From: Dehalococcoidia bacterium
GTDB lineage: Bacteria; Chloroflexota; Dehalococcoidia; DSTF01; JACRBR01
Direction of reading: 5' to 3'
DNA length: 64,000 nucleotides
Assembly (NCBI GenBank): GCA_015478665.1
Contig: JADMII010000001.1
Coordinates: 1-64,000 of the forward strand
The first letter of the stretch is position 1, and every line of letters starts with the position of its first letter. Of this stretch, positions 18,303-30,480 are shown piece after piece. The notes under the pieces were generated by a model. The model was not told the origin of the DNA. It was given only the letters and a program-made list of their open reading frames with translations, and did not search any database. Position numbers and translations under genes: made by a program.

Positions 18303-21300
18303 TCCAGGAACTGCGCCCGTCGTTTCCGACGGGTGCAACTTACACGCATCCGCTACTGCGCAAAGTGGGCGCATGTTTCAATCCTCACCCGTCGTTTCCG
18401 ACGGGTGCAACCGGCGCGACGGCGGCCGCCGGCGGCGCGACGACGTCGTTTCAATCCTCACCCGTCGTTTCCGACGGGTGCAACCTGCTCGTGCGGCTGC
18501 TCCAGGCCCGCTACGGCACGTTTCAATCCTCACCCGTCGTTTCCGACGGGTGCAACTGGCCGACAATGCGTGGGTGACCGACGATGCGCTCGTGTTTCAA
18601 TCCTCACCCGTCGTTTCCGACGGGTGCAACCCGCCGGCAGCATGTCCACCGGCGACCTTACCTGTTTCAATCCTCACCCGTCGTTTCCGACGGGTGCAAC
18701 CCTACAGTATCACCACCTGATTGCCGATACTACCAGTGTTTCAATCCTCACCCGTCGTTTCCGACGGGTGCAACCCCTACAGTATCACCACCTGATGCCG
18801 ATACTAAGTGTGTTTCAATCCTCACCCGTCGTTTCCGACGGGTGCAACGGACCCACAGCCCGTTAAGTCGTAAGGGGCGACTGCGGGTTTCAATCCTCAC
18901 CCGTCGTTTCCGACGGGTGCAACGCCGACAATGCGTGGGTGACCGACGACGCGCTGGTGTTTCAATCCTCACCCGTCGTTTCCGACGGGTGCAACTGCCG
19001 GAGGCTACTGGCCCTCGGGCCGTTTGGCTGGTTTCAATCCTCACCCGTCGTTTCCGACGGGTGCAACATCGCCGCCCAGGCGAACTCCATCTCCGCCGCC
19101 CAGGTTTCAATCCTCACCCGTCGTTTCCGACGGGTGCAACGAGCAGCGAGGCACGTTCATCGGCTGCGGGGAGCGTGTTTCAATCCTCACCCGTCGTTTC
19201 CGACGGGTGCAACGTGGTTGGCGTCTCGAGCTCTCCTACACCGTGCCGATGTTTCAATCCTCACCCGTCGTTTCCGACGGGTGCAACCGTCGCTGTACAC
19301 CCGGGCGGTCGGCCAACTCTCCAGTTTCAATCCTCACCCGTCGTTTCCGACGGGTGCAACGAGGCCCGGGTAATCATCGAGGCGTGGGTGAGCGGGTTTC
19401 AATCCTCACCCGTCGTTTCCGACGGGTGCAACCTATGCGCGGATTGGCGGCAAGGCCCGGGTTAGTGGGTTTCAATCCTCACCCGTCGTTTCCGACGGGT
19501 GCAACCCCATGCCCAGCGACGTACGCCGTTGGCGTCGATCGTGTTTCAATCCTCACCCGTCGTTTCCGACGGGTGCAACAAGTGTCCGGCAATGCTCGGG
19601 TGGGCGGCAGGGCGGTTTCAATCCTCACCCGTCGTTTCCGACGGGTGCAACCGCCTCCTGCGACTGCCACTCGTACACCTTGAGCGGTTTCAATCCTCAC
19701 CCGTCGTTTCCGACGGGTGCAACCTGAGCTGGTTGAGCTAGCTAGCTTTGGCTGATATCTGTTTCAATCCTCACCCGTCGTTTCCGACGGGTGCAACTTT
19801 CCCTTTCCTTTCCCCTTGGTGGTGATGGTGTTTCAATCCTCACCCGTCGTTTCCGACGGGTGCAACGCGCATTGTCGTCAATCCACGCCTCGCCGGCCAC
19901 GTTTCAATCCTCACCCGTCGTTTCCGACGGGTGCAACGGCGAGCAGATGGGATACTATTGCTCACTCGGAGGTTTCAATCCTCACCCGTCGTTTCCGACG
20001 GGTGCAACTGTCGATGCGGCCGGCAAATATCTCCGTATCCCCGACGTTTCAATCCTCACCCGTCGTTTCCGACGGGTGCAACGTCGAGCAGGTAGACGCC
20101 CGGCCGGATGCGGATGTTTCAATCCTCACCCGTCGTTTCCGACGGGTGCAACATGCGCGGGTTGGCGGCAGTGCACAGGTTGTCAGGTTTCAACCCTCAC
20201 CCGTCGTTTCCGACGGGTGCAACTTCTCCGGAAACTTCAAGCCAGAAGGACAGATGCAGAGTTTCAATCCTCACCCGTCGTTTCCGACGGGTGCAACTTG
20301 GCCCATGGGTGTACAAGGGCGCTCGCAATAAGTTTCAATCCTCACCCGTCGTTTCCGACGGGTGCAACACGTAGCTGCTATAGCCGACATCCCCCGCTTG
20401 CTGAAGTTTCAATCCTCACCCGTCGTTTCCGACGGGTGCAACGTGCCGGTATCACACCAGGCAACATCGTTGACGTGATGTTTCAATCCTCACCCGTCGT
20501 TTCCGACGGGTGCAACGTTGGGCCGTACAAAGACTACAACGATTTCCTGACAGTTTCAATCCTCACCCGTCGTTTCCGACGGGTGCAACCCGACGTTGAC
20601 CCGAGTGTACGCAGCGCTATCCGGTTTCAATCCTCACCCGTCGTTTCCGACGGGTGCAACGATGGTGGTGGAGGGGGGAGGGGTTGATAGGCATCTGTTT
20701 CAATCCTCACCCGTCGTTTCCGACGGGTGCAACGCGGGTACGGGATCACCGCTTGTATCGGATACAGGTGTTTCAATCCTCACCCGTCGTTTCCGACGGG
20801 TGCAACTTGTTCTGGGCTGTTGGCGCAACGTCACCGCTCAAAGTTTCAATCCTCACCCGTCGTTTCCGACGGGTGCAACTAGCTAGCTAGCTTACTTTTG
20901 TTTAGTAACTAATCAGTTTCAATCCTCACCCGTCGTTTCCGACGGGTGCAACGTCACGAGCGCATTGTCGTCGATGCGCGCACGCCCGCCGACGTTTCAA
21001 TCCTCACCCGTCGTTTCCGACGGGTGCAACCGAGCGGTAAGGCGTGGCAGCTAGCTAGCTATCTGGTTTCAATCCTCACCCGTCGTTTCCGACGGGTGCA
21101 ACATTAGCAGTAACATTGGTAAGATTGAAAGTAGAGAGGTTTCAATCCTCACCCGTCGTTTCCGACGGGTGCAACCTGACGCAGTGGACCAGTTGCTGCG
21201 CGACTCAATCAACGTTTCAATCCTCACCCGTCGTTTCCGACGGGTGCAACCTTATTGTACGTTGTCGCCGGCCGGCCGGGCATGGGGTTTCAATCCTCAC

Positions 21301-22050
21301 CCGTCGTTTCCGACGGGTGCAACTTCGCCGCTCGCCGCCCGCTTCACCTGGTAGTCCGAGTTTCAATCCTCACCCGTCGTTTCCGACGGGTGCAACGCAT
21401 GCGACATGTTGGCCGCCGTGTTGTAGACGCCGGTGTTTCAATCCTCACCCGTCGTTTCCGACGGGTGCAACACGTTGGGCTTGGTCAGCGCTTCGCAGTG
21501 ATTTCTGTTTCAATCCTCACCCGTCGTTTCCGACGGGTGCAACGCGTTCACGACGGCACGGATGTCCATGGCGTCGAGTTTCAATCCTCACCCGTCGTTT
21601 CCGACGGGTGCAACGGCAAGAGTCAAGAGATTTTTGTCAAGGCAAACCCAGTTTCAATCCTCACCCGTCGTTTCCGACGGGTGCAACGCTGCACGGTGTG
21701 CAATTATCCCTGCCTGGGGTCCTGTTTCAATCCTCACCCGTCGTTTCCGACGGGTGCAACGGCAAGAGTCAAGAGATTTTTGTCAAGGCAAACCCAGTTT
21801 CAATCCTCACCCGTCGTTTCCGACGGGTGCAACGCTAGCTCATTTGCGATATGGTATACTTGAGATATGTTTCAATCCTCACCCGTCGTTTCCGACGGGT
21901 GCAACTCGTCCCGATCTCACGCTCGCGGCCACCGCCAAGTTTCAATCCTCACCCGTCGTTTCCGACGGGTGCAACTCCGTCGAGACGCCGCCGTAGCCCA
22001 TCAGCTCGTCGATGTTTCAATCCTCACCCGTCGTTTCCGACGGGTGCAAC
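18303..22050 (-). CRISPR. Type I-C CRISPR array, 52 repeats and 51 spacers
   Basis: There are 51 near-identical 37-base repeats (first intact 18375-18411, last 22014-22050) plus a terminal degenerate one (18303-18339) whose first 12 plus-strand bases have diverged. Spacers are 32-41 bases, mostly 34-37; period about 73. Read on the minus strand each repeat is GTTG, stem CACCCGTCG, loop GAAA, stem CGACGGGTG, then an 11-base handle AGGATTGAAAC. The handle and the decayed repeat at the left end both show transcription right to left, with the leader beside cas2. One repeat (20187-20223) has a single C for T at 20194. Spacers 21615-21650 and 21761-21796 are identical. Many spacers are AT-rich compared with the host, as expected for viral origin. 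Confidence 0.98.
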
Positions 22051-22242
22051 GGCTAATCCGACGGGCTCCAACCCTTCCGCGCCCAGCCAACGCCCGCTTC
22101 ACCGCCCATGTGCCGCCCCGATCAGCCGCGCGGCGGCGCAAGTGTCGACCCCTCCGTCCTCTGGGCTGGTCTTCGCCCCCTTTCCGCACACCTGTCCTAC
22201 GCGGACCTCACACTCCCGCTTCCCCGAGCTCCCGTTCCGCGC
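22051..22242 (-). promoter_or_regulatory. CRISPR leader between array and cas2
   Basis: The 192 bases between the first repeat and the cas2 stop form the leader by position. It is unusually GC-rich, without the AT-rich tract of many leaders. At 22057-22072 the sequence TCCGACGGGCTCCAAC resembles the last part of the plus-strand repeat, TCCGACGGGTGCAAC, a degenerate fragment next to the integration site. No clear promoter boxes are seen. Confidence 0.65.
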
Positions 22243-22533
22243 TCAGCCGATGAGCGTCCCCCCAAAATCGACCTCCGGCCCCAACCCGAACACCTGCGTG
22301 AACGCCGACCGCGGCTCGCGCAACCGGTAGATCCGCAGGCTGTCCTGCGATGGTTCGATCTCGCGCAGCAGCTTGTACGTGAAGCGCTCCACCTGCACAT
22401 CCGTCAGCACGCACTCGAACACGGACTTCTGCACGCGCTGCCCATGCGCCACGCAGACGTTCGCCACTCGGCGCAGTCGGCGTCGGCCCTCCCTGGAATC
22501 TGTCGCGACGTCGTATGCCACCAATAACTCCAT
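22243..22533 (-). CDS. cas2: CRISPR-associated endoribonuclease/integration protein Cas2
   Basis: Protein of 96 residues with a ferredoxin-like fold: MELLVAYDVATDS carries the first strand and conserved Asp8, GQRVQKSVFECVL follows, and the C-terminus ends in VDFGGTLIG. Cas2 dimers bridge two Cas1 dimers in spacer integration. It lies 19 bases downstream of cas1 and is the last cas gene before the leader, the standard I-C order. Confidence 0.97.
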   Translation of the reverse strand: MELLVAYDVATDSREGRRRLRRVANVCVAHGQRVQKSVFECVLTDVQVERFTYKLLREIEPSQDSLRIYRLREPRSAFTQVFGLGPEVDFGGTLIG

Positions 22534-22552
22534 CTCAACACCTCCACCCGCA

Positions 22553-23587
22553 TCAACCGCGAGCTACGAACGGCGGATAGTGCTCGAGATCGCCGCGAAG
22601 ATGCCGCGCCAGCAGCCGCGCCTGCACGTGATGCAGCACGCCGAGAGGCACCTTCTGCCGCATTACGCGGTGCTCCACCTCCTCGTGTTTTCGCTTCTGC
22701 CACGCCGCCAGCACCTCCCTCCTCCCCTCGTCCCCCAGGTACACTGCGCCACCCGGTAGCGTCCGAAACGCCGCCGCGCGCAGTTGCCGCCGGTTCACCA
22801 ACGTCAGCGCCAGCCGATCGCAGAGGATGGGCCGCATCTCCTCCATCAGATCGAGCGCCAGGGCCGGCCGCCCGGGACGAAGCGCATGCAGATAGCCCAC
22901 CTGTGGGTCCAGCCCGACGCCCTCCAGGCCGCTCTCGCACTCGGCGCGCAACAGCGCGTACAAGAACGACAGCAGCGCATTGATCGGGTCGCGAGGCGGC
23001 CGGCGCGTCCGCCCACGCGGCGCGAACGTCGCCCGGTCCTCCCGCACCATGGCCCCGAATGCGCCGAAGTACGTGCGGGCCGCATCGCCTTCGATTCCGC
23101 GCACCACGTTCAACTCGGTCGCGTCACGCAGCCGCGTCAGCCCGTCGGTGAGGAATGCGCCCGCCCGCACCAGCACCGCCCGATCGCCGTCATCCGTCGT
23201 ATCGCGCGCCGCGCGCAGCAGCACATGACGGCTGTTCTGCAGCTTCCCGGCCACCATCTGGCGCGCGATCGCCGTCGGCCGCGCCCCATCCGACAGCGCG
23301 AGATGCTGCGCCCGGCGCAGCAGCACGTTGCCCTTCGTCGTACCTTCGATGCGCGCGTGGAACCGGCCTGTGCGGTCGAGCAGGACGATGCTGCGGCCGT
23401 CGTCCGCGCAGCGTTCTACCAGCCACGGCGAGACGTTGATCGCGCCGAAGCAGACGATGCCCGCGAGCCGCAGCAGCGGCACGCGCAACGTCGTCACGCC
23501 GTCCACCTCGACGCGCACGGTGCCGTGGTCCAGACGCAGCGAGGCACCGGCCGTCGTGACGTACAGCGTGTTGCCGATGTCCGTCAT
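22553..23587 (-). CDS. cas1: CRISPR-associated integrase Cas1 (type I-C)
   Basis: Protein of 344 residues, the usual I-C length. The N-terminal beta domain starts NTLYVTTAGASLRLDHG. The metal-site residues are visible as Glu in RGIEGDAARTYFGAFG, His in VGYLHALRPGRPALALD, and Asp/Glu in LDLMEEMRPI. It integrates prespacers at the leader end of the array with Cas2 and Cas4. The start ATG overlaps the cas4 stop by 4 bases. Confidence 0.98.
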   Translation of the reverse strand: MTDIGNTLYVTTAGASLRLDHGTVRVEVDGVTTLRVPLLRLAGIVCFGAINVSPWLVERCADDGRSIVLLDRTGRFHARIEGTTKGNVLLRRAQHLALSDGARPTAIARQMVAGKLQNSRHVLLRAARDTTDDGDRAVLVRAGAFLTDGLTRLRDATELNVVRGIEGDAARTYFGAFGAMVREDRATFAPRGRTRRPPRDPINALLSFLYALLRAECESGLEGVGLDPQVGYLHALRPGRPALALDLMEEMRPILCDRLALTLVNRRQLRAAAFRTLPGGAVYLGDEGRREVLAAWQKRKHEEVEHRVMRQKVPLGVLHHVQARLLARHLRGDLEHYPPFVARG

Positions 23588-24276
23588 CGCCGGCCTCCGT
23601 CATCAGGGACAGCCGCATCGAACACCTGGAACAGCGCGCCCTGCAGACCGCGCAGCCGGTCGCGCGCCGCCACGACGGAGGGAAGGCAGGACACGTTCAG
23701 CGAGCAATGCGTGCACCGGGCATCGTCCGGTGCCGGCGGCAGCCGCTGCGATGCGAACTGCTCCCGCACCGCCACGACTGCCGCTTCCGTCGCCGCCCGC
23801 AGTTCCGCCGTCAACTCGACCGCGTGCCGCCGTCGCGTCGTCCAGTAGAAGACGGCGCCGCGCGGCACCGGCACGCCGAGCATCTCCTCCAGGCAGAGCG
23901 CCTGGGCGCACAGTTGCAGGTCTTCCGGGCGGAAGCGGCCGCCGTGCCGCCGCCGCCCGACCTTGTACTCCACCGGAAGCACGCCCTCCCCGTGGAACTC
24001 GACGAGGTCGGCCTTGCCGATCAGCCCCAGGCGATCTGACCAAATCGGCAGTGCGCGCTCCGACCGCACGCCGGCGATGAGTTCGGACCCCGGGATATCG
24101 ACGCGCTCGTGCGCCTCCGTCCCGCGCACCGTGAACACGTTCTCATCGAACGTCTCGTCGACGTGGATGAGCGCGCACTGCCGCGCGCAGTAGGCGTAGT
24201 GCTCGAGCGCCGATACCGGGATCCGCTCATCCTCCGGCGTCCAGGCGGCGGCCTCGAAGGGCGCCGCCGCGCTCAT
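23584..24276 (-). CDS. cas4: CRISPR-associated exonuclease Cas4
   Basis: Protein of 230 residues. One iron-sulfur cysteine pair lies near the N-terminus (YCARQC) and two further cysteines near the C-terminus (CTHCSLNVSC), fitting a 4Fe-4S cluster. The RecB-like nuclease core has GKADLVEFHG and PVEYKVGRR plus QLCAQALCLEEM. Cas4 trims prespacers and selects the PAM end during adaptation. It overlaps both cas7 and cas1 by 4 bases. Confidence 0.96.
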   Translation of the reverse strand: MSAAAPFEAAAWTPEDERIPVSALEHYAYCARQCALIHVDETFDENVFTVRGTEAHERVDIPGSELIAGVRSERALPIWSDRLGLIGKADLVEFHGEGVLPVEYKVGRRRHGGRFRPEDLQLCAQALCLEEMLGVPVPRGAVFYWTTRRRHAVELTAELRAATEAAVVAVREQFASQRLPPAPDDARCTHCSLNVSCLPSVVAARDRLRGLQGALFQVFDAAVPDDGGRR

Positions 24277-25211
24277 CCGACCAGCCGCGTCAGCGTGACC
24301 CCTTCGGGCAGCGCGCCCTCGTTCACGCGGACGATGTAGTCGGAGAAGCGGCGGACGGCATCGACCTCGGGCACGCGCTGCACCTCGACAGTCTCGAAGA
24401 GGTCTTGCGCCGGCGCGTCGCCGAGCTTGCTCTCGTGCGAGAAGACGTACAACCCGCGGCAGGACATCAGCCCGCGCGCCGCCGAGCGATCGTTGTCCCA
24501 CATGCCCTGCAGCGCCTGCCAGAACAGCGCCAGGTCGTCGCTGTCGACGCCCGTGCGTTCCGCGAAGTGGGGGTTGAAGAACCCGTAGGCGCGGTAGAGC
24601 CCGTACGGCACCAGCGCCTTCCGGCCCATCTCCGTCGTCTTGCCGCTGACCTTCTCCGTGCCATCGGCCTGCTCCGTCACGACGACCTTCGCGTCTTCCT
24701 CCTTCGTCACCGCGACGCGCGTGATCGAAAGGTCCAGCGGTACGACCTCGTCGTACGAACGCGCGAACGTCAGTTGCAGCGGGCCCCGCACCTGCCCGCA
24801 ATTCGTGCCAGTCGTCATTACTGCGCCGAACATGCGGATGTCATAGAAGGTCCGGCACATCCACTGCCGCGCCCGCTCGACGGTATCGCGGTCCTGCTTG
24901 GCGCCGGTGGACTTCAGCTTCTCCGCGTCATACGCCCGCTTGTGCTGGGTGTTGAGCGCCACGCCCTTGCTCTGGACGTAGATTTCGAAGCCCGCCCCGT
25001 CGCCGCGCCGCACATCGACGTAGTCGCGCACCTTGCGCTTGATCGCCACGTCGGACACGAGGCCCTGCATCGTCTCCGGATCGACGCGCGGCAGGTTGCC
25101 CGCGTCCGGGTCGCCGTTCGGGTTGCCGTCGCTCACGTCGAACAGCAGCACGAAGTCGTGCCGCCGCCCGGCGTCGGTGCAGATGTCGTTCAGGGTTCCA
25201 CTCATGGTCAT
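24273..25211 (-). CDS. cas7: Type I-C Cascade backbone protein Cas7 (Csd2)
   Basis: Protein of 312 residues from ATG 25211, with GAGGAG 8 bases upstream; a second ATG lies at 25205. The start DFVLLFDVSDGNPNGDPDAG is the I-C Cas7 signature. Further family segments include MFGAVMTTGTNCGQVRGP and LMSCRGLYVFSHESKLG. Several copies coat the crRNA spacer to form the Cascade filament. The sequence identifies the system as I-C rather than I-B. Confidence 0.98.
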   Translation of the reverse strand: MTMSGTLNDICTDAGRRHDFVLLFDVSDGNPNGDPDAGNLPRVDPETMQGLVSDVAIKRKVRDYVDVRRGDGAGFEIYVQSKGVALNTQHKRAYDAEKLKSTGAKQDRDTVERARQWMCRTFYDIRMFGAVMTTGTNCGQVRGPLQLTFARSYDEVVPLDLSITRVAVTKEEDAKVVVTEQADGTEKVSGKTTEMGRKALVPYGLYRAYGFFNPHFAERTGVDSDDLALFWQALQGMWDNDRSAARGLMSCRGLYVFSHESKLGDAPAQDLFETVEVQRVPEVDAVRRFSDYIVRVNEGALPEGVTLTRLVG

Positions 25212-25215
25212 CGTC

Positions 25216-26967
25216 CTACTCCTCTTCGGCTGTCAGCGCCGCCTCGGCGGCGGCGTCATCGATGTTCTCGGGCTCAGTCGCGGCCCTCACGCCCTTGCCC
25301 GCGAAGCCACGGGCACGCTCGTGGTAATAGCCCAGGGCGAACCGCCCCTGCTCCTGCAGGCTCAGGGTGCGCGGGAACGTGCCCAACTCGCCCATGACCT
25401 CCTCCATTCGCCGCTGCAGCGCCACCCAGGCGCCGTGCTCGTCGCGTTCGAGCTTGCTCAGGTGCGGCTGCGCTCCCCGCATCAGTCGCCCGAACACCGA
25501 TGCCGGCGCCGATGACGCCGTGCCGTAGAATCGGTCGACGATCGTCGCATTCACGCGGGGCATCGCCTTCCGCTGGGTCTGCTCGATCACGGCGAGCAGC
25601 CGTCCGCAGAGGTACGCCGGATCGCGGTCCGTCTCTTCCAGTTCCATGTACTCCTCCTCGCCGTCGCCGGCGATCATGTGCCGCGAGAGCAGCACCATCT
25701 TGATGAGCGCGGCGCGGGACCGCGACACGCTCTGTTCGGCGCGGCAGCGTCGGACCGCCTGATACAGCACGTCGTGCGGAAGCGGAGCCCCCGTCAACGC
25801 CGTATCGAGCAGCGCCCGGCTGACGTTCGCCTCTGGTGGGTTGTTGCGGTCGCCACTGCGTATCGTCGCGTACGCCAGCTGCCGCAGCGTCAGCGGCATC
25901 CCCGTCTCGCCGTTCCAGTCCACCAGCGCCTGCATCCGGAACCACACGCCAAGATGCCGCTTCGCCTCGCCGATCGTCGTCTCGATCCAGTCGCGGACGA
26001 CGCAGCGCCCGCCGGATCCGGAGAACGCCGTGGCATAGAACGGTGAGTAGTCCAAGTCGTCGCTCGTCGCGCCGTCCCGCGCCCGACGCGCCGCGTCGAG
26101 CAGCTGGCGCACGAGCTTCGGATCAGCGCTGTTCATCGCCCCCGCCCAGACGATGTCCGCGGCCGCCTCCCTCGCCCAGAACATATAGGCGACATTGTTG
26201 AGGCGGATGCAGTTGAGATCCGACGACAGCAACTCGTTCGCGCTCTTGGTGAAGCGCTCGCCGCATGAACTGCAGGTGGGCGCGTTCAGCGACGCCTGCA
26301 GCCCGTACGACTCGAACGCATCGCTGTTGAAGCTGATCACCGATGTGCCGGTCGTCTGTCCGCCTGGCACGCCTTTGATCTTCATCTCGAGCCGTTCGAG
26401 CGCGGGGCGCTGCATGCCGCAGATCACGCATTGCATGATCGGTGCATCGTGCTTGGCCGGATTGTTCTCGTCCGCCCAAAACGCCTGGACGGACGGCAAG
26501 TCGATAACAAATACGCCGTCGACAGTGAACGTGATCACCGCTCCAGCGTCGAACCCATCGCCGAGCTCGAGCTGAGAGAGGGCGTTGCCCTGCAGAAAGT
26601 CCCGTATGGCAATCACGGCCGGTTCGCTGGTCGTCGCCGCGCAGCGCCCGAGCAGCGCCATGTAGGCCTCGTGGCACTGCCGCACGCGGTCCGGCTTCGC
26701 ACCCTCGCCCGCAAACCCGAACGTATAGTCCGCCTTGTCGGCGAGGAGCAGCGGCTTGATGCCGACGGCGCGCTGCACGGACGGGGCGGGCCGCCGCACA
26801 CCCCGCTTCGTACTCTTGCTCGATGGATCGGCAGTATCGACGGGCGCTGGGGGCAAGAGCCGACCCTCGCCATCAAGGCTGACGATGTACCGGACCGGCG
26901 TCTCGCTATACAGGCGCGGCGGGAGCTTCAGCCGGTCGGCGTAGGCCTCAAGACGCTGGAGCAACAT
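25216..26967 (-). CDS. cas8c: Type I-C Cascade large subunit Cas8c (Csd1)
   Basis: Protein of 583 residues. Start MLLQRLEAYADRLKLPP and PVRYIVSLDGEG are typical of Csd1. A C-x2-C pair in CVICGM and another in CSSCGERF form the zinc-finger-like region. Cas8c recognises the PAM and contacts Cas3. In I-C systems an internal start in this gene yields a Cas11c small subunit; the C-terminal helical part here is compatible, but I did not identify that start. It overlaps cas5c by 20 bases. Confidence 0.96.
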   Translation of the reverse strand: MLLQRLEAYADRLKLPPRLYSETPVRYIVSLDGEGRLLPPAPVDTADPSSKSTKRGVRRPAPSVQRAVGIKPLLLADKADYTFGFAGEGAKPDRVRQCHEAYMALLGRCAATTSEPAVIAIRDFLQGNALSQLELGDGFDAGAVITFTVDGVFVIDLPSVQAFWADENNPAKHDAPIMQCVICGMQRPALERLEMKIKGVPGGQTTGTSVISFNSDAFESYGLQASLNAPTCSSCGERFTKSANELLSSDLNCIRLNNVAYMFWAREAAADIVWAGAMNSADPKLVRQLLDAARRARDGATSDDLDYSPFYATAFSGSGGRCVVRDWIETTIGEAKRHLGVWFRMQALVDWNGETGMPLTLRQLAYATIRSGDRNNPPEANVSRALLDTALTGAPLPHDVLYQAVRRCRAEQSVSRSRAALIKMVLLSRHMIAGDGEEEYMELEETDRDPAYLCGRLLAVIEQTQRKAMPRVNATIVDRFYGTASSAPASVFGRLMRGAQPHLSKLERDEHGAWVALQRRMEEVMGELGTFPRTLSLQEQGRFALGYYHERARGFAGKGVRAATEPENIDDAAAEAALTAEEE

Positions 26968-27625
26968 CCGCCACCTCCGTCCCGTCCCATGCCGGCACGC
27001 GCAAAACGCCGGCTTGAACCCTTGCATCGAAGAAGCGCGGGATGCCGCGTCCGCCACCTCCGGGCGCGTAGTCGATGTCCCGCAGCATCGAACCGAGATC
27101 ATCAGTCAGGTCGACCGGACGGAGATCTGAGGCCGGCCCGAACGACGCCGAGAACTCGCGGCATCCGAGATACGGCGTCGCGAAGCAGCGACCAGCAAGC
27201 ACGCGCCGCCGGAACTGGTCGCGGTACTTCGCCACATCGTCGGTCGCGTGCGGCCGCAACTCGATGCTCGCCGTGATGCGGTAGCGCACATCGCGGAGCG
27301 CGAGCGTGTGCCGCTGCGAGCGGTCCTCCTCAATGACGAACCCGCCGCCACTCGCTGCCCATGAGCGGGCGGCGCGTTCGCTCGCCCGGCTGTTGACTTC
27401 GTTCCGCAGGATCGAGAAGAACTTGATCGGCCGCAGCACGACGATCTCCTCGACCCGCCAGCGAATCTCCGGCTTCCAGAACACCGCCTCCAGGACCCCG
27501 CGTGCGGCCGAAGGCGTCATCACGGGATAGCTCACCCGCTCCACCTTCATCTCCGGGCGTGTAAAGCAGGCGAAGTCGCCCCACACCTCCATCTGGAGCG
27601 GCCCGTCGCGGACATTCGAGACCAT
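26948..27625 (-). CDS. cas5c: crRNA-processing endoribonuclease and Cascade subunit Cas5c
   Basis: Protein of 225 residues from ATG 27625, preceded by AGGAGGAAG; an upstream ATG at 27703 has no ribosome site. LQMEVWGDFACFTRPEMKVERVSYPVMTPSAARG (read as 3 adjacent blocks: MEVWGDFACF, RPEMKVERVSYPVMT, PSAARGVLEAVFWKP) is the I-C Cas5 N-terminus. The C-terminus has LGCREFSASF and a glycine-rich loop GGGGRG. Lacking a cas6 gene, I-C systems use Cas5c to cut the repeat below its stem, leaving the 11-base 5' handle. First gene of the cas5c-cas8c-cas7-cas4-cas1-cas2 operon. Confidence 0.97.
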   Translation of the reverse strand: MVSNVRDGPLQMEVWGDFACFTRPEMKVERVSYPVMTPSAARGVLEAVFWKPEIRWRVEEIVVLRPIKFFSILRNEVNSRASERAARSWAASGGGFVIEEDRSQRHTLALRDVRYRITASIELRPHATDDVAKYRDQFRRRVLAGRCFATPYLGCREFSASFGPASDLRPVDLTDDLGSMLRDIDYAPGGGGRGIPRFFDARVQAGVLRVPAWDGTEVADVAPAS

Positions 27626-27697
27626 CCACTTCCTCCTTTCGATTACGCGCCTCCCCGGAACCCCCGGGATTCGCCCACTCACTGATCCACCACGCAA

Positions 27698-27708
27698 TTT
27701 CAATCCTC
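27698..27708 (-). repeat. Solitary CRISPR-handle-like sequence in the cas5c leader
   Basis: On the minus strand GAGGATTGAAA is an exact 11-base match to the repeat 3' region (10 of 11 handle bases plus the preceding G), followed by T instead of C. No full repeat stem precedes it. A separate hairpin (CCACT, 7-base loop, AGTGG) lies upstream at 27735-27719. Confidence 0.6.
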
Positions 27709-27754
27709 GGGCAGCTGACCACTTCTGTGTAGTGGAGCAGTACCAGCGGCATCG

Positions 27755-27784
27755 ATTTTATTGGACGTCCACACGGAGCATCAA
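27755..27784 (-). promoter_or_regulatory. Putative promoter of the cas5c operon
   Basis: On the minus strand TTGATG (27784-27779), 18-base spacer, TAAAAT (27760-27755). It lies in the 169-base gap between cas3 and cas5c, so cas5c to cas2 probably form a transcript separate from or additional to cas3. A TTGACA also occurs at 27798-27793 over the cas3 stop. Confidence 0.45.
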
Positions 27785-27794
27785 CCAGAGCTTG

Positions 27795-29948
27795 TCAAGT
27801 AAGCAGCACCTCCTGGTCCGCCAGTTGCAGGCCGAGCCGACAGTCGTAGGCATGCGGGTCGCCAACCCACTCCCGCACACCGTCGGTCACGGGCACCAAC
27901 CATCCCCGCCCCGCCGCGCGTTCTATATCGCCATGACGCACCGCCACGGTGTACGGCTGCAAGCTCCGCAGCAGCTCCCGCCCTTGGCCGTTCCTCTGGC
28001 GAAGCCCCGCCACGGCGCCCGCGACCGTCGCCCGCGCCGCGTCATCGCCATACGGCACAATGACGTCCTCCGTATCGTCCACGATCATCCGAAACGCACG
28101 CCTCACCTCGGGAAAGTCCATGCGCGCACGCTTCTCCTGGATGCGGTCGGCGTCCGGGTCGATCCTCTCGTACAGCTCCGCGAAGTAGGCGCCGACGGCA
28201 TCCGGTCGCTGCAGCCCCGCCGCGCCCGAGGCGAGGTGCTTCCGCGTGAGCTGCGTCGCCATCTCGTAGGTGCCCGGCGGCAACCCGCCCTCGAGCGGCA
28301 GGAACACCGTCACCTCACCCACGTCGTCCTTGCCCTCGCGGTTGCAGCGGCCCGCCGCCTGCAAGATGCGGTCGAGCGGCCCCATTGCCCGGAAGACGGC
28401 CGGGAAGTCGATGTCGACGCCCGCTTCGATCACCTGCGTCGTCACCAGCCGGCACTCCTCGCCCGCCGCCAGCCGCCGCTTCACTTCCGTCAGTACATCG
28501 GCCCGATGCGCCCCGCAGAGCAGTGTCGAGAGATGCAGCGCGTTCTCGTCGTCGAGCGCGTCGATGACGGCCAACGCATCCTTCTTCGTGTTTAGCACCA
28601 TCAGCGCCTGCCGCCTCTCTCGCAGGGCCGCCGCAGCGTCCGGCCACGACCACGGCTCCGGCGCGAAGGTGTAGCGCACGCGCTCCAGTAGCGCGAACGT
28701 CGCCGCCGGGTCCGGTGCGATCTCGTCGGGCGACGCGAACTCGGGATGCCCGAAGCGCGGCTGCGTCGCCGTCGAAAGCAGCACCGTCGTGCCGCAGTGG
28801 TCGACGAGCCCGCGCAGCACGTCGAGGATCGGCGCAATGTACTTCGCCGGCAGCATCTGCACTTCATCGAGGATCAGCACCGCGCCCGCCAGGTTGTGCA
28901 GCTTGCGCGACGTGCTCGTCCGGTTCCCGAGCAGGCTCTCGAAGAGCTGCACCGTCGTGGTGACGACGATCGGCGCGTCCCAGTTCTCCGCTGCCAGCCG
29001 CTGCCAGGCGTGCGCCCCCGTCGCGTCTCCCTCGCCGTCCTCATCCCACATGGCCGCGCTGCTGTGCTCCAGGACCGCGCACTCGCCGAATATGTCACGA
29101 TAGACTGCCGCCGTCTGCTCCGTGATCGACGTGTACGGGATGGCGACGACGACCCGCCGCTTGCCGTGGACGGCGGCGTGGCGCAGCGCAAAGGCCATGC
29201 CGGCGAGTGTCTTGCCGCCACCCGTCGGCACCGTCATTCGGTAAATCGCCGGCGGCCGCTCGCCCGCCACCTCACATCGCTCGGCGATCGTCTCGCGCAG
29301 CCGCGAGAGCGGACCTGGATTGCGGGCGTTCAGGCTCGCTCGATGCGCGCGCAGCTTCTCGAGCATCACGGCAGCATCGAACGCGGTCTCCCGCTCGGCC
29401 GCCCGTGACGAGTTGAAGTGCGCTTCTGTATCGAGGAAGTCGGCATCGACCAGGCACGAGAACACCATGCGCACGAACATCTCGGCGTCGGGCGCCGTCG
29501 TGATGTTCTTCGGCAGCGGGATGGCTACCGGCGCGTCCTGAAGCTGCGGCAGCGCGACGCGTGCGAGCGCCAGCGCTTCATCGATGCGGCGCTTCATGTC
29601 GGGCTTCGCGAGCCAAGTCCGCAGGTCCGCGTTCGATTTCAGGCCGCCGTGATGCGCCTGGATCAGCAGCGGCAGCAGCGGGCTGAGCGGCGCCGCGTAC
29701 GTTGCGCCGGCGCCCTTATGATCGACGCGTGGGTGCCGCCGGCCGGGTTCGCGATCGCAGGCATCGAGGTACGCCTGGAAATCCGGATGGAACTTGCCGA
29801 GGTCGTGATAGATTCCTGCTGCACGCGCCAGTTCAGCCGCGCCGAGCACTACCGCGAATTCGGCCGCGAGTTCGCCGACATCCCGCAGGTGCGCGACGAG
29901 CGGGTGGCGCTGCTGCGCCTCGTTCCTGGAATGCGCTGATGCGTCCAT
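27795..29948 (-). CDS. cas3: CRISPR-associated helicase-nuclease Cas3
   Basis: Protein of 717 residues with fused N-terminal HD nuclease and C-terminal SF2 helicase. HD motifs: HPLVAHLRDVGELA, AGIYHDLGKFHPDF, QAHHGGLKS and CLVDADFLDTE. Helicase motifs: Walker A VPTGGGKT, motif Ia AIPYTSITEQ, DEVQ box LILDEVQMLP, motif III STATQ, motif VI QAAGRCNREGK. It is recruited to R-loops by Cascade to unwind and degrade target DNA. It is slightly shorter than some I-C Cas3 proteins, but all core motifs are intact. Confidence 0.98.
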   Translation of the reverse strand: MDASAHSRNEAQQRHPLVAHLRDVGELAAEFAVVLGAAELARAAGIYHDLGKFHPDFQAYLDACDREPGRRHPRVDHKGAGATYAAPLSPLLPLLIQAHHGGLKSNADLRTWLAKPDMKRRIDEALALARVALPQLQDAPVAIPLPKNITTAPDAEMFVRMVFSCLVDADFLDTEAHFNSSRAAERETAFDAAVMLEKLRAHRASLNARNPGPLSRLRETIAERCEVAGERPPAIYRMTVPTGGGKTLAGMAFALRHAAVHGKRRVVVAIPYTSITEQTAAVYRDIFGECAVLEHSSAAMWDEDGEGDATGAHAWQRLAAENWDAPIVVTTTVQLFESLLGNRTSTSRKLHNLAGAVLILDEVQMLPAKYIAPILDVLRGLVDHCGTTVLLSTATQPRFGHPEFASPDEIAPDPAATFALLERVRYTFAPEPWSWPDAAAALRERRQALMVLNTKKDALAVIDALDDENALHLSTLLCGAHRADVLTEVKRRLAAGEECRLVTTQVIEAGVDIDFPAVFRAMGPLDRILQAAGRCNREGKDDVGEVTVFLPLEGGLPPGTYEMATQLTRKHLASGAAGLQRPDAVGAYFAELYERIDPDADRIQEKRARMDFPEVRRAFRMIVDDTEDVIVPYGDDAARATVAGAVAGLRQRNGQGRELLRSLQPYTVAVRHGDIERAAGRGWLVPVTDGVREWVGDPHAYDCRLGLQLADQEVLLT

Positions 29949-30351
29949 CGTTAGCCTCCGGCTCTCTCTTGCACGACGAGCGCGCGGTTAAGCGCACGCC
30001 CCTTTGGAGTACAAGCTTGGTTGTCCAGCGACCGGGCGCCGGTGGCAGCATGACGAGCGGCGATGCCTCTCGCTGCGCCGGCCATGTCCCGTCAAGTGAT
30101 GCACATCGTTGACATCATCCTCGCTCTGAGAGCCGCGTGCTGCACCCGGGACAATCTCCCCCTTGAGCGTCATAGGCACCCCCGTCTTCGGCCATGGCCG
30201 GCGTGACTTCATGCCAATTCTGCTGTAGCGGGATGTTCTGGACGAGATCACGCCGGCGTGCGGGCGCTGTGGCGTCGGGTCCTCCTGTCTGTTCCCTGAG
30301 TATGTGTGTTGCGCGGGGTTGCGCGCGCTGATGAGGCGGAGGGACTCGTTC
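29949..30351. other. Cas3 upstream region with degraded mobile-element sequence
   Basis: No intact gene. On the minus strand the sequence below the transposase fragment continues as open but unrecognisable frames. It probably is the decayed 3' part of an insertion sequence. No convincing cas3 promoter is visible; a TTGACG occurs near 30090-30100 on the minus strand without a matching -10. Confidence 0.45.
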
Positions 30352-30480
30352 GGCCAGGTAGCAGCAGCCGACCAGCCACTCGTCGTGCTGTTCGGCGAGC
30401 ACGCGACCGCCCAGGCGGATCACCGCGGCGTGGTTGGGGAAGATGCCGACGACGTTCGGTGCCAATGCGATGTACGCCGA
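30352..30480 (-). pseudogene. IS256-family transposase C-terminal fragment
   Basis: A minus-strand frame encodes [17 protein letters not shown] and [16 protein letters not shown], matching the C-terminal end of mutator/IS256-type transposases (VVGIFP-x3-A-x-IRL-x-G-x3-EQ-x-DEW). No catalytic DDE domain is present; only about 40 residues are recognisable, so it is a remnant. It marks the edge of the cas island beside tRNA-Arg. Confidence 0.7.

Follow-up and report, generated by a model that had tools for sequence, protein, structure and literature searches.

Why do eight of the 51 spacers of one type I-C CRISPR array (16%; six in one orientation, two in the other) translate into fragments of a single family of hexapeptide-repeat proteins? 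Spacer choice is usually put down to the PAM, to DNA ends, to replication, or to priming near an old target. The array lies in a 64,000-nucleotide stretch of a Dehalococcoidia genome (the window), and a literature search found no paper on spacers converging on hexapeptide-repeat genes. When the ScpB of the host was compared with twelve named genomes, Ornatilinea matched best, which would perhaps place the host in the Chloroflexota.

The locus is a complete type I-C CRISPR-Cas system (Table 1), assigned to this subtype because Cas8c/Csd1, Cas5c, Cas7, Cas3, Cas4, Cas1 and Cas2 are all present. Comparison with known I-C systems (cas3-cas5c-cas8c-cas7-cas4-cas1-cas2) shows the same gene content, gene order, repeat end and placement of the array by cas2, and nothing unusual in the genes; the machinery is ordinary, and it is the spacer content that is unusual. 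The adaptation module (cas1, cas2 and cas4) is present and adjoins the array. The Cas4 domain begins far inside its ORF, which makes it probable that cas4 really starts at some point after the listed TTG. The 37-nt repeat reads GTTGCACCCGTCGGAAACGACGGGTGAGGATTGAAAC in its minus-strand form, and of the intact copies 50 are identical and one (20187–20223) has a single substitution. The minus-strand repeat end (ATTGAAAC), the side on which the cas genes lie, and the degenerate repeat at the far end place the leader at about 22051–22242, so that s50 is the newest spacer and s0 the oldest. A preliminary description of the array had counted 51 spacers, which is correct if the one at 18341–18374, behind the degenerate terminal repeat, is included. 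The only full Cas1 match in the host genome (2.67 Mb, 66 contigs) belongs to this locus (18303–29948); a second CRISPR locus was considered and rejected, the other Cas1 match being a 35-residue stretch with no array around it. A search allowing 3 mismatches did not find the repeat in any of 293 other genomes of the class. A related repeat occurs in one genome of the same family (G007), where five spacers were read and none is of the hexapeptide type. Next to cas3 (30115–30465) there is a weak remnant of a Mutator-family transposase (PF00872, under the cut-off).

Table 1. Features of the CRISPR-Cas locus and scores of the spacers discussed (bits, fit to the hexapeptide profile; near-matches, similar sites in viral contigs that lie in the hexapeptide frame).
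Feature	Position	Strand	Details
Type I-C CRISPR array	18303..22050	-	Degenerate terminal repeat, 51 intact 37-nt repeats and 51 spacers (s0-s50)
Degenerate leader-distal (oldest) repeat	18303..18340	-	Repeat match confined to its 3'-side half (+ strand)
Hexapeptide spacer s3	18557..18593	+	ADNAWVTDDALV; 22.3 bits, p<=4.9e-5; 151/154 near-matches
Hexapeptide spacer s8, near-duplicate of s3	18924..18958	+	22.3 bits; 306/309 near-matches
Hexapeptide spacer s14	19361..19395	+	EARVIIEAWVS; 10.7 bits, p=3.4e-4; weakest of the eight
Hexapeptide spacer s15	19433..19468	+	YARIGGKARVS; 18.5 bits; PAM-anchored relative of s25
Hexapeptide spacer s17	19580..19614	+	VSGNARVGGRA; 27.3 bits; 340/343 near-matches
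Hexapeptide spacer s21	19867..19900	-	VAGEAWIDDNA; 17.7 bits; 192/195 near-matches
Hexapeptide spacer s25	20153..20186	+	ARVGGSAQVV; 17.8 bits; 46/46 near-matches
Spacer s27, earlier claimed as a ninth, unsupported	20298..20331	+	GPWVYKGARN; -2.1 bits, p=0.032 (uncorrected for the 51 spacers)
Hexapeptide spacer s36	20953..20993	-	VGGRARIDDNALV; 20.6 bits; PAM-anchored relative of s21
Presumed leader, cas2 to newest spacer	22051..22242	-	Basis: position
cas2	22243..22533	-	PF09827, 1.2e-20
cas1	22553..23587	-	PF01867, 4.4e-93
ORF with cas4	23584..24801	-	PF01930, 2e-20; domain at residues 197-373
cas7	24273..25211	-	PF05107, 8.9e-95
cas8c (csd1), subtype I-C signature	25216..27102	-	PF09709, 8.2e-124
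cas5c	26948..27703	-	PF09704, 9.8e-31
cas3, helicase with HD domain	27795..29948	-	PF22590, PF00270, PF18019; single 717-aa ORF

The preliminary description had reported at least nine hexapeptide spacers, and its nine coordinate ranges and translations are all correct. Homology searches yielded 81 viral hexapeptide genes, whose 1,836 repeats were condensed into a six-position profile, and every spacer was scored against it in all six frames and registers. The initial query had been written from the spacers themselves, but the profile is dominated by the viral repeats, which show preferences of their own (A 0.91, V 0.87, G 0.74). Eight spacers carry the six-residue A-x-[VI] period in one frame (p<=3.4e-4 each), with scores from 10.7 to 27.3 bits, and seven of them beat all 20,400 dinucleotide-preserving shuffles (p<=4.9e-5 each). 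The next best spacer is s27, the supposed ninth, which falls among the background, and the count therefore stands at eight. As controls, 1,856 unique spacers were taken from 72 arrays that lie beside other relatives of Cas1. None of them passes a threshold of 8 bits, at which 58% of 36-mers cut from hexapeptide genes kept out of the profile are detected (8/51 versus 0/1,856, Fisher p=1.5e-13). These controls rule out hexapeptide spacers as a general trait of I-C arrays. The skew towards hexapeptide genes is thus real and strongly non-random, and it is the skew itself that is the unusual part of this CRISPR system.

The similarity extends to the DNA. The viral contigs that were fetched contain 80 sites at <=7 mismatches, every one of them within a hexapeptide ORF, and at <=9 mismatches 1,042 of 1,054 sites are in the hexapeptide frame predicted by the spacer, often several per gene. 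This support is strong for s3, s8, s17, s21 and s25. For s14 and s15 it is thin, and for s36, which has no site in these contigs at <=9 mismatches and is placed by its translation, it is absent. Near-sites recur up to 7 times per gene within 7 mismatches (viral loci L137 and L174), even in unrelated phages.

The motif had been ascribed to YdcK-like hexapeptide proteins, and this ascription holds. PF18836 (YdcK beta-solenoid repeat) is matched by 32 of 32 viral homologues tested, the solved YdcK structure 2F9C matches them with an E-value of 6e-30, and the same homologues match PHROG 7964, 5070 and 20532, none with a known function. The spacer translations share with this family the period A-[RW]-[VI]-x-[GD]-[ND], although only 10–13 residues can be compared per spacer, and in several of them D-D or D-N replaces the G-N found in most viral members. 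Members have a common N-terminal consensus (..GxxLxRIxA..VxxGxxGGWxExExNL..GDAWV..), a helical C-terminal part and a median length of 225 aa. They are predicted to fold as a left-handed beta-helix: an AlphaFold model (mean pLDDT 80) has two-residue strands every six residues, and a Foldseek search with it returned YdcK first. As that match is weak (E 0.009, TM 0.26), the predicted fold leans on the sequence match and the strand pattern. The family occurs in more than 500 viral contigs, and relatives are found in 70 phage records with hosts that include Streptococcus, Bacillus, Vibrio, Xanthomonas, Bacteroides and Mycobacterium. The record of Vibrio phage 1.139.B (MG592511; L318, 3155–3496) labels a repeat gene of this type as six 'CRISPR spacers', an annotation error for which the repeats are evidently responsible.

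Viral genes had been named at the outset as the target, and the searches do not demonstrate this. No protospacer, exact or with few mismatches, was found in 50,697 phage records, nor was one found among 72,556 plasmids, in IMG/VR with seven patterns or queries specific to individual spacers or to the peptides they encode, or in the viral contigs fetched with the family alignment. The closest database sites, from pattern and BLAST searches that were non-exhaustive, have 5 mismatches. In the phage collection the hexapeptide spacers gave two weak matches, one of which falls in a hexapeptide gene of Bacteroides phage BF766P1 and agrees with its frame (NAWVSGDAR); a phage match of s36 (H1) was rejected, as it falls in an unrelated gene. 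That the eight spacers target a hexapeptide gene is accordingly a claim of homology, and a viral origin of that gene is inferred. Self-targeting was rejected: the host genome contains no hexapeptide gene, and its two weak DNA matches lie in a rarA-like gene and an unrelated membrane-protein ORF. A search for proviruses in the class, run without a positive control, found none. Seven of 400 genomes of the phylum gave matches, also rejected, the best being to an antisense frame of another repeat protein.

The arrangement of the eight spacers gives some indication of how they were acquired. They are interspersed at ages 14 to 47 counted from the leader, in the older part of the array, and are adjacent to one another as often as chance predicts. 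Such interspersion, with no excess of neighbours, indicates that they were acquired on separate occasions and not in one burst. The newest 14 spacers include none of them (P=0.06 by chance). All 1,275 spacer pairs were aligned at the PAM side. The five with the greatest likeness, each at zero offset, were s45/s47, which are identical, and the four hexapeptide pairs s3/s8 (2 differences), s15/s25 (9), s21/s36 (9) and s14/s15 (14). Likeness without offset indicates that the spacers were taken at homologous positions of the repeats. The closest hexapeptide pair, s3/s8, had already been described as two mismatches apart, which was confirmed; the two share the PAM-side end and differ at PAM-side positions 3 and 9. 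The pairs s3/s8, s15/s25 and s21/s36 differ at 20 positions in all, 17 of which fall among the 17 nearest the PAM (p=0.0013; three pairs), the PAM-side end being assigned from repeat orientation and not from observed PAMs.

The explanation favoured here, with about even confidence, is repeated and probably primed re-acquisition of YdcK-type gene fragments from a multi-copy, diverging target. Type I systems acquire new spacers from DNA that is imperfectly recognised by an existing spacer. Fragments of the gene would have been stored on at least seven or eight separate occasions from invading elements, most likely tailed phages. The hexapeptide gene would offer many near-identical sites per genome and would diverge quickly by mutation and repeat exchange, and an existing spacer would keep meeting imperfect copies of its target, whether these lie in the same phage, in an escape mutant or in another phage that carries the gene. 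Cascade bound to such a copy would recruit Cas3 and lead to primed uptake of neighbouring DNA, often from the same gene; old spacers would lose their cutting power and yet go on priming, and the array would then gain further spacers from that gene. Three steps we infer: the elements would be phages, priming would account for the uptake, and escape mutation would have led from s3 to s8.

Re-acquisition is supported by the eight profile-matching spacers against none among the controls, the in-frame viral near-matches, their multiple sites per gene, the interspersed ages of the eight, and the PAM-side ends common to related spacers. It is also supported by the PAM-proximal bias of the differences, by the non-hexapeptide pair s5/s6 with its similarly placed differences, and by the redundancy seen throughout the array. 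A similar case is the Legionella type I-C array in which an older mismatched and a newer perfect spacer at overlapping sites were read as primed acquisition after escape (PMC5071653). The Legionella I-C, I-F and II-B arrays directed at LME-1 likewise devote many spacers to one target, with older mismatched and newer spacers at overlapping sites; LME-1, however, is a single 30-kb non-repetitive element that was itself found, while the target here is an internally repetitive gene family deduced from homology (PMC5071653). It counts against priming that no protospacer was found and that even the nearest sites carry 5 mismatches, which may exceed what Cascade tolerates for that purpose; in one study of the E. 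coli type I-E system, priming needed extensive PAM-proximal pairing (PMC5904413). It counts against re-acquisition that the newest 14 spacers lack the motif and that the PAM-proximal bias comes from three pairs only. The usual type I-C PAM is TTC, and TTC/GAA occurs at 13.7 per kb in hexapeptide repeats versus 37.7 elsewhere in the same contigs, i.e. 2.7 times more rarely. If the PAM is TTC, uptake from the repeats should therefore be lower, and a PAM-rich target is ruled out as the cause of the skew. The preliminary description had offered two explanations, namely that internal repeats favour re-acquisition or that the viruses depend on the protein. The former has more support, in that sites recur within a gene and near-duplicates share the PAM-side end, but neither is demonstrated.

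Two alternatives remain, and both are considered unlikely. In the first, plain sampling, the host's main virus would consist of about 8% or more hexapeptide sequence, in one very long gene or several, and random uptake would yield 8 of 51. Many viral loci do hold more than one hexapeptide ORF (a count inflated by antisense ORFs), four loci of 15–18 kb reach 8–11% hexapeptide sequence, and at a target fraction of 8–10% the observed number has P=0.05–0.13. With a median gene of 225 aa, however, the median fraction in hexapeptide-centred loci is 2.1%, for which P is about 8e-6; moreover, the I-C PAM would make these genes poorer donors, and other repetitive elements are over-represented in the array too. 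In the second, to which we assign a similarly low probability, uptake was unbiased and selection followed, either because cutting at several sites makes escape hard or because a gene common to many phages gives wide breadth. One spacer indeed has up to 7 near-sites per gene, and the distribution of the family, across more than 500 viral contigs and phages from Streptococcus to Vibrio and Mycobacterium, would suit such a process. Breadth across phages is nevertheless doubtful, as sites in different phages are at least 5 bases apart, and recombination can shorten a repeat array, which would ease escape.

It is considerably less probable that the target is non-viral, i.e. a plasmid, an integrative element or a foreign chromosome with a YdcK-like gene. 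YdcK (2F9C) is a bacterial chromosomal protein and no viral protospacer was found, but the plasmids gave no matches and the closest known sequences lie in viral contigs. That GC-rich spacers translate this way by chance, and that the observer had read the motif into them, was a fair concern given that frame and strand had been picked by eye and that one of the nine fails; it holds for s27 and is refuted, very nearly to certainty, for the eight by the shuffle test, the control arrays and the in-frame DNA similarity to viral genes.

The share of one repetitive family, at interspersed older positions, raises the possibility that target copy number and repeat divergence also shape CRISPR memory, and suggests that a viral gene with internal repeats can enter this memory many times. 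For PHROG 7964/5070, a widespread phage gene of unknown function, at least one host would appear to meet it repeatedly. A more speculative extension of re-acquisition, which we doubt, is that phage genes with internal repeats are a shared bait for type I memory: as a repeat family is present in many copies per genome and in many unrelated phages, an old spacer would go on priming uptake from new ones. If so, the array would drift towards the family in question, and the phage repeats would meanwhile diverge on the PAM-proximal side. The period-aware spacer profile is a simple statistic that is applicable to all CRISPR arrays.

Redundancy is seen across the array, where seven pairs of spacers have a common 12-mer versus 0.2 expected. 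Among them, spacers s19 (19724–19760), s35 (20880–20915) and s37 (21031–21065) contain the same palindromic 12-mer, AGCTAGCTAGCT, and s48 begins GCTAGCTC; the source is probably an intergenic element that occurs repeatedly in some virus of this host. The adjacent s5 and s6 (18701–18811) are near-duplicates of non-hexapeptide sequence that differ at PAM-side positions 3–5 and by one internal indel, and both carry the inverted repeat AGTATC...GATACT. Spacers s45 and s47 (21615–21796) have the same sequence and flank s46, an arrangement that cannot be explained by simple tandem duplication of a single unit. The newest spacer, s50 (21976–22013), has a weak match (E 0.2) to a primase/helicase gene of Weiservirinae mycobacteriophages, with DEL[MI]GY in frame; in Boilgate, a member of this group, a YdcK-type gene lies two genes away from the primase.
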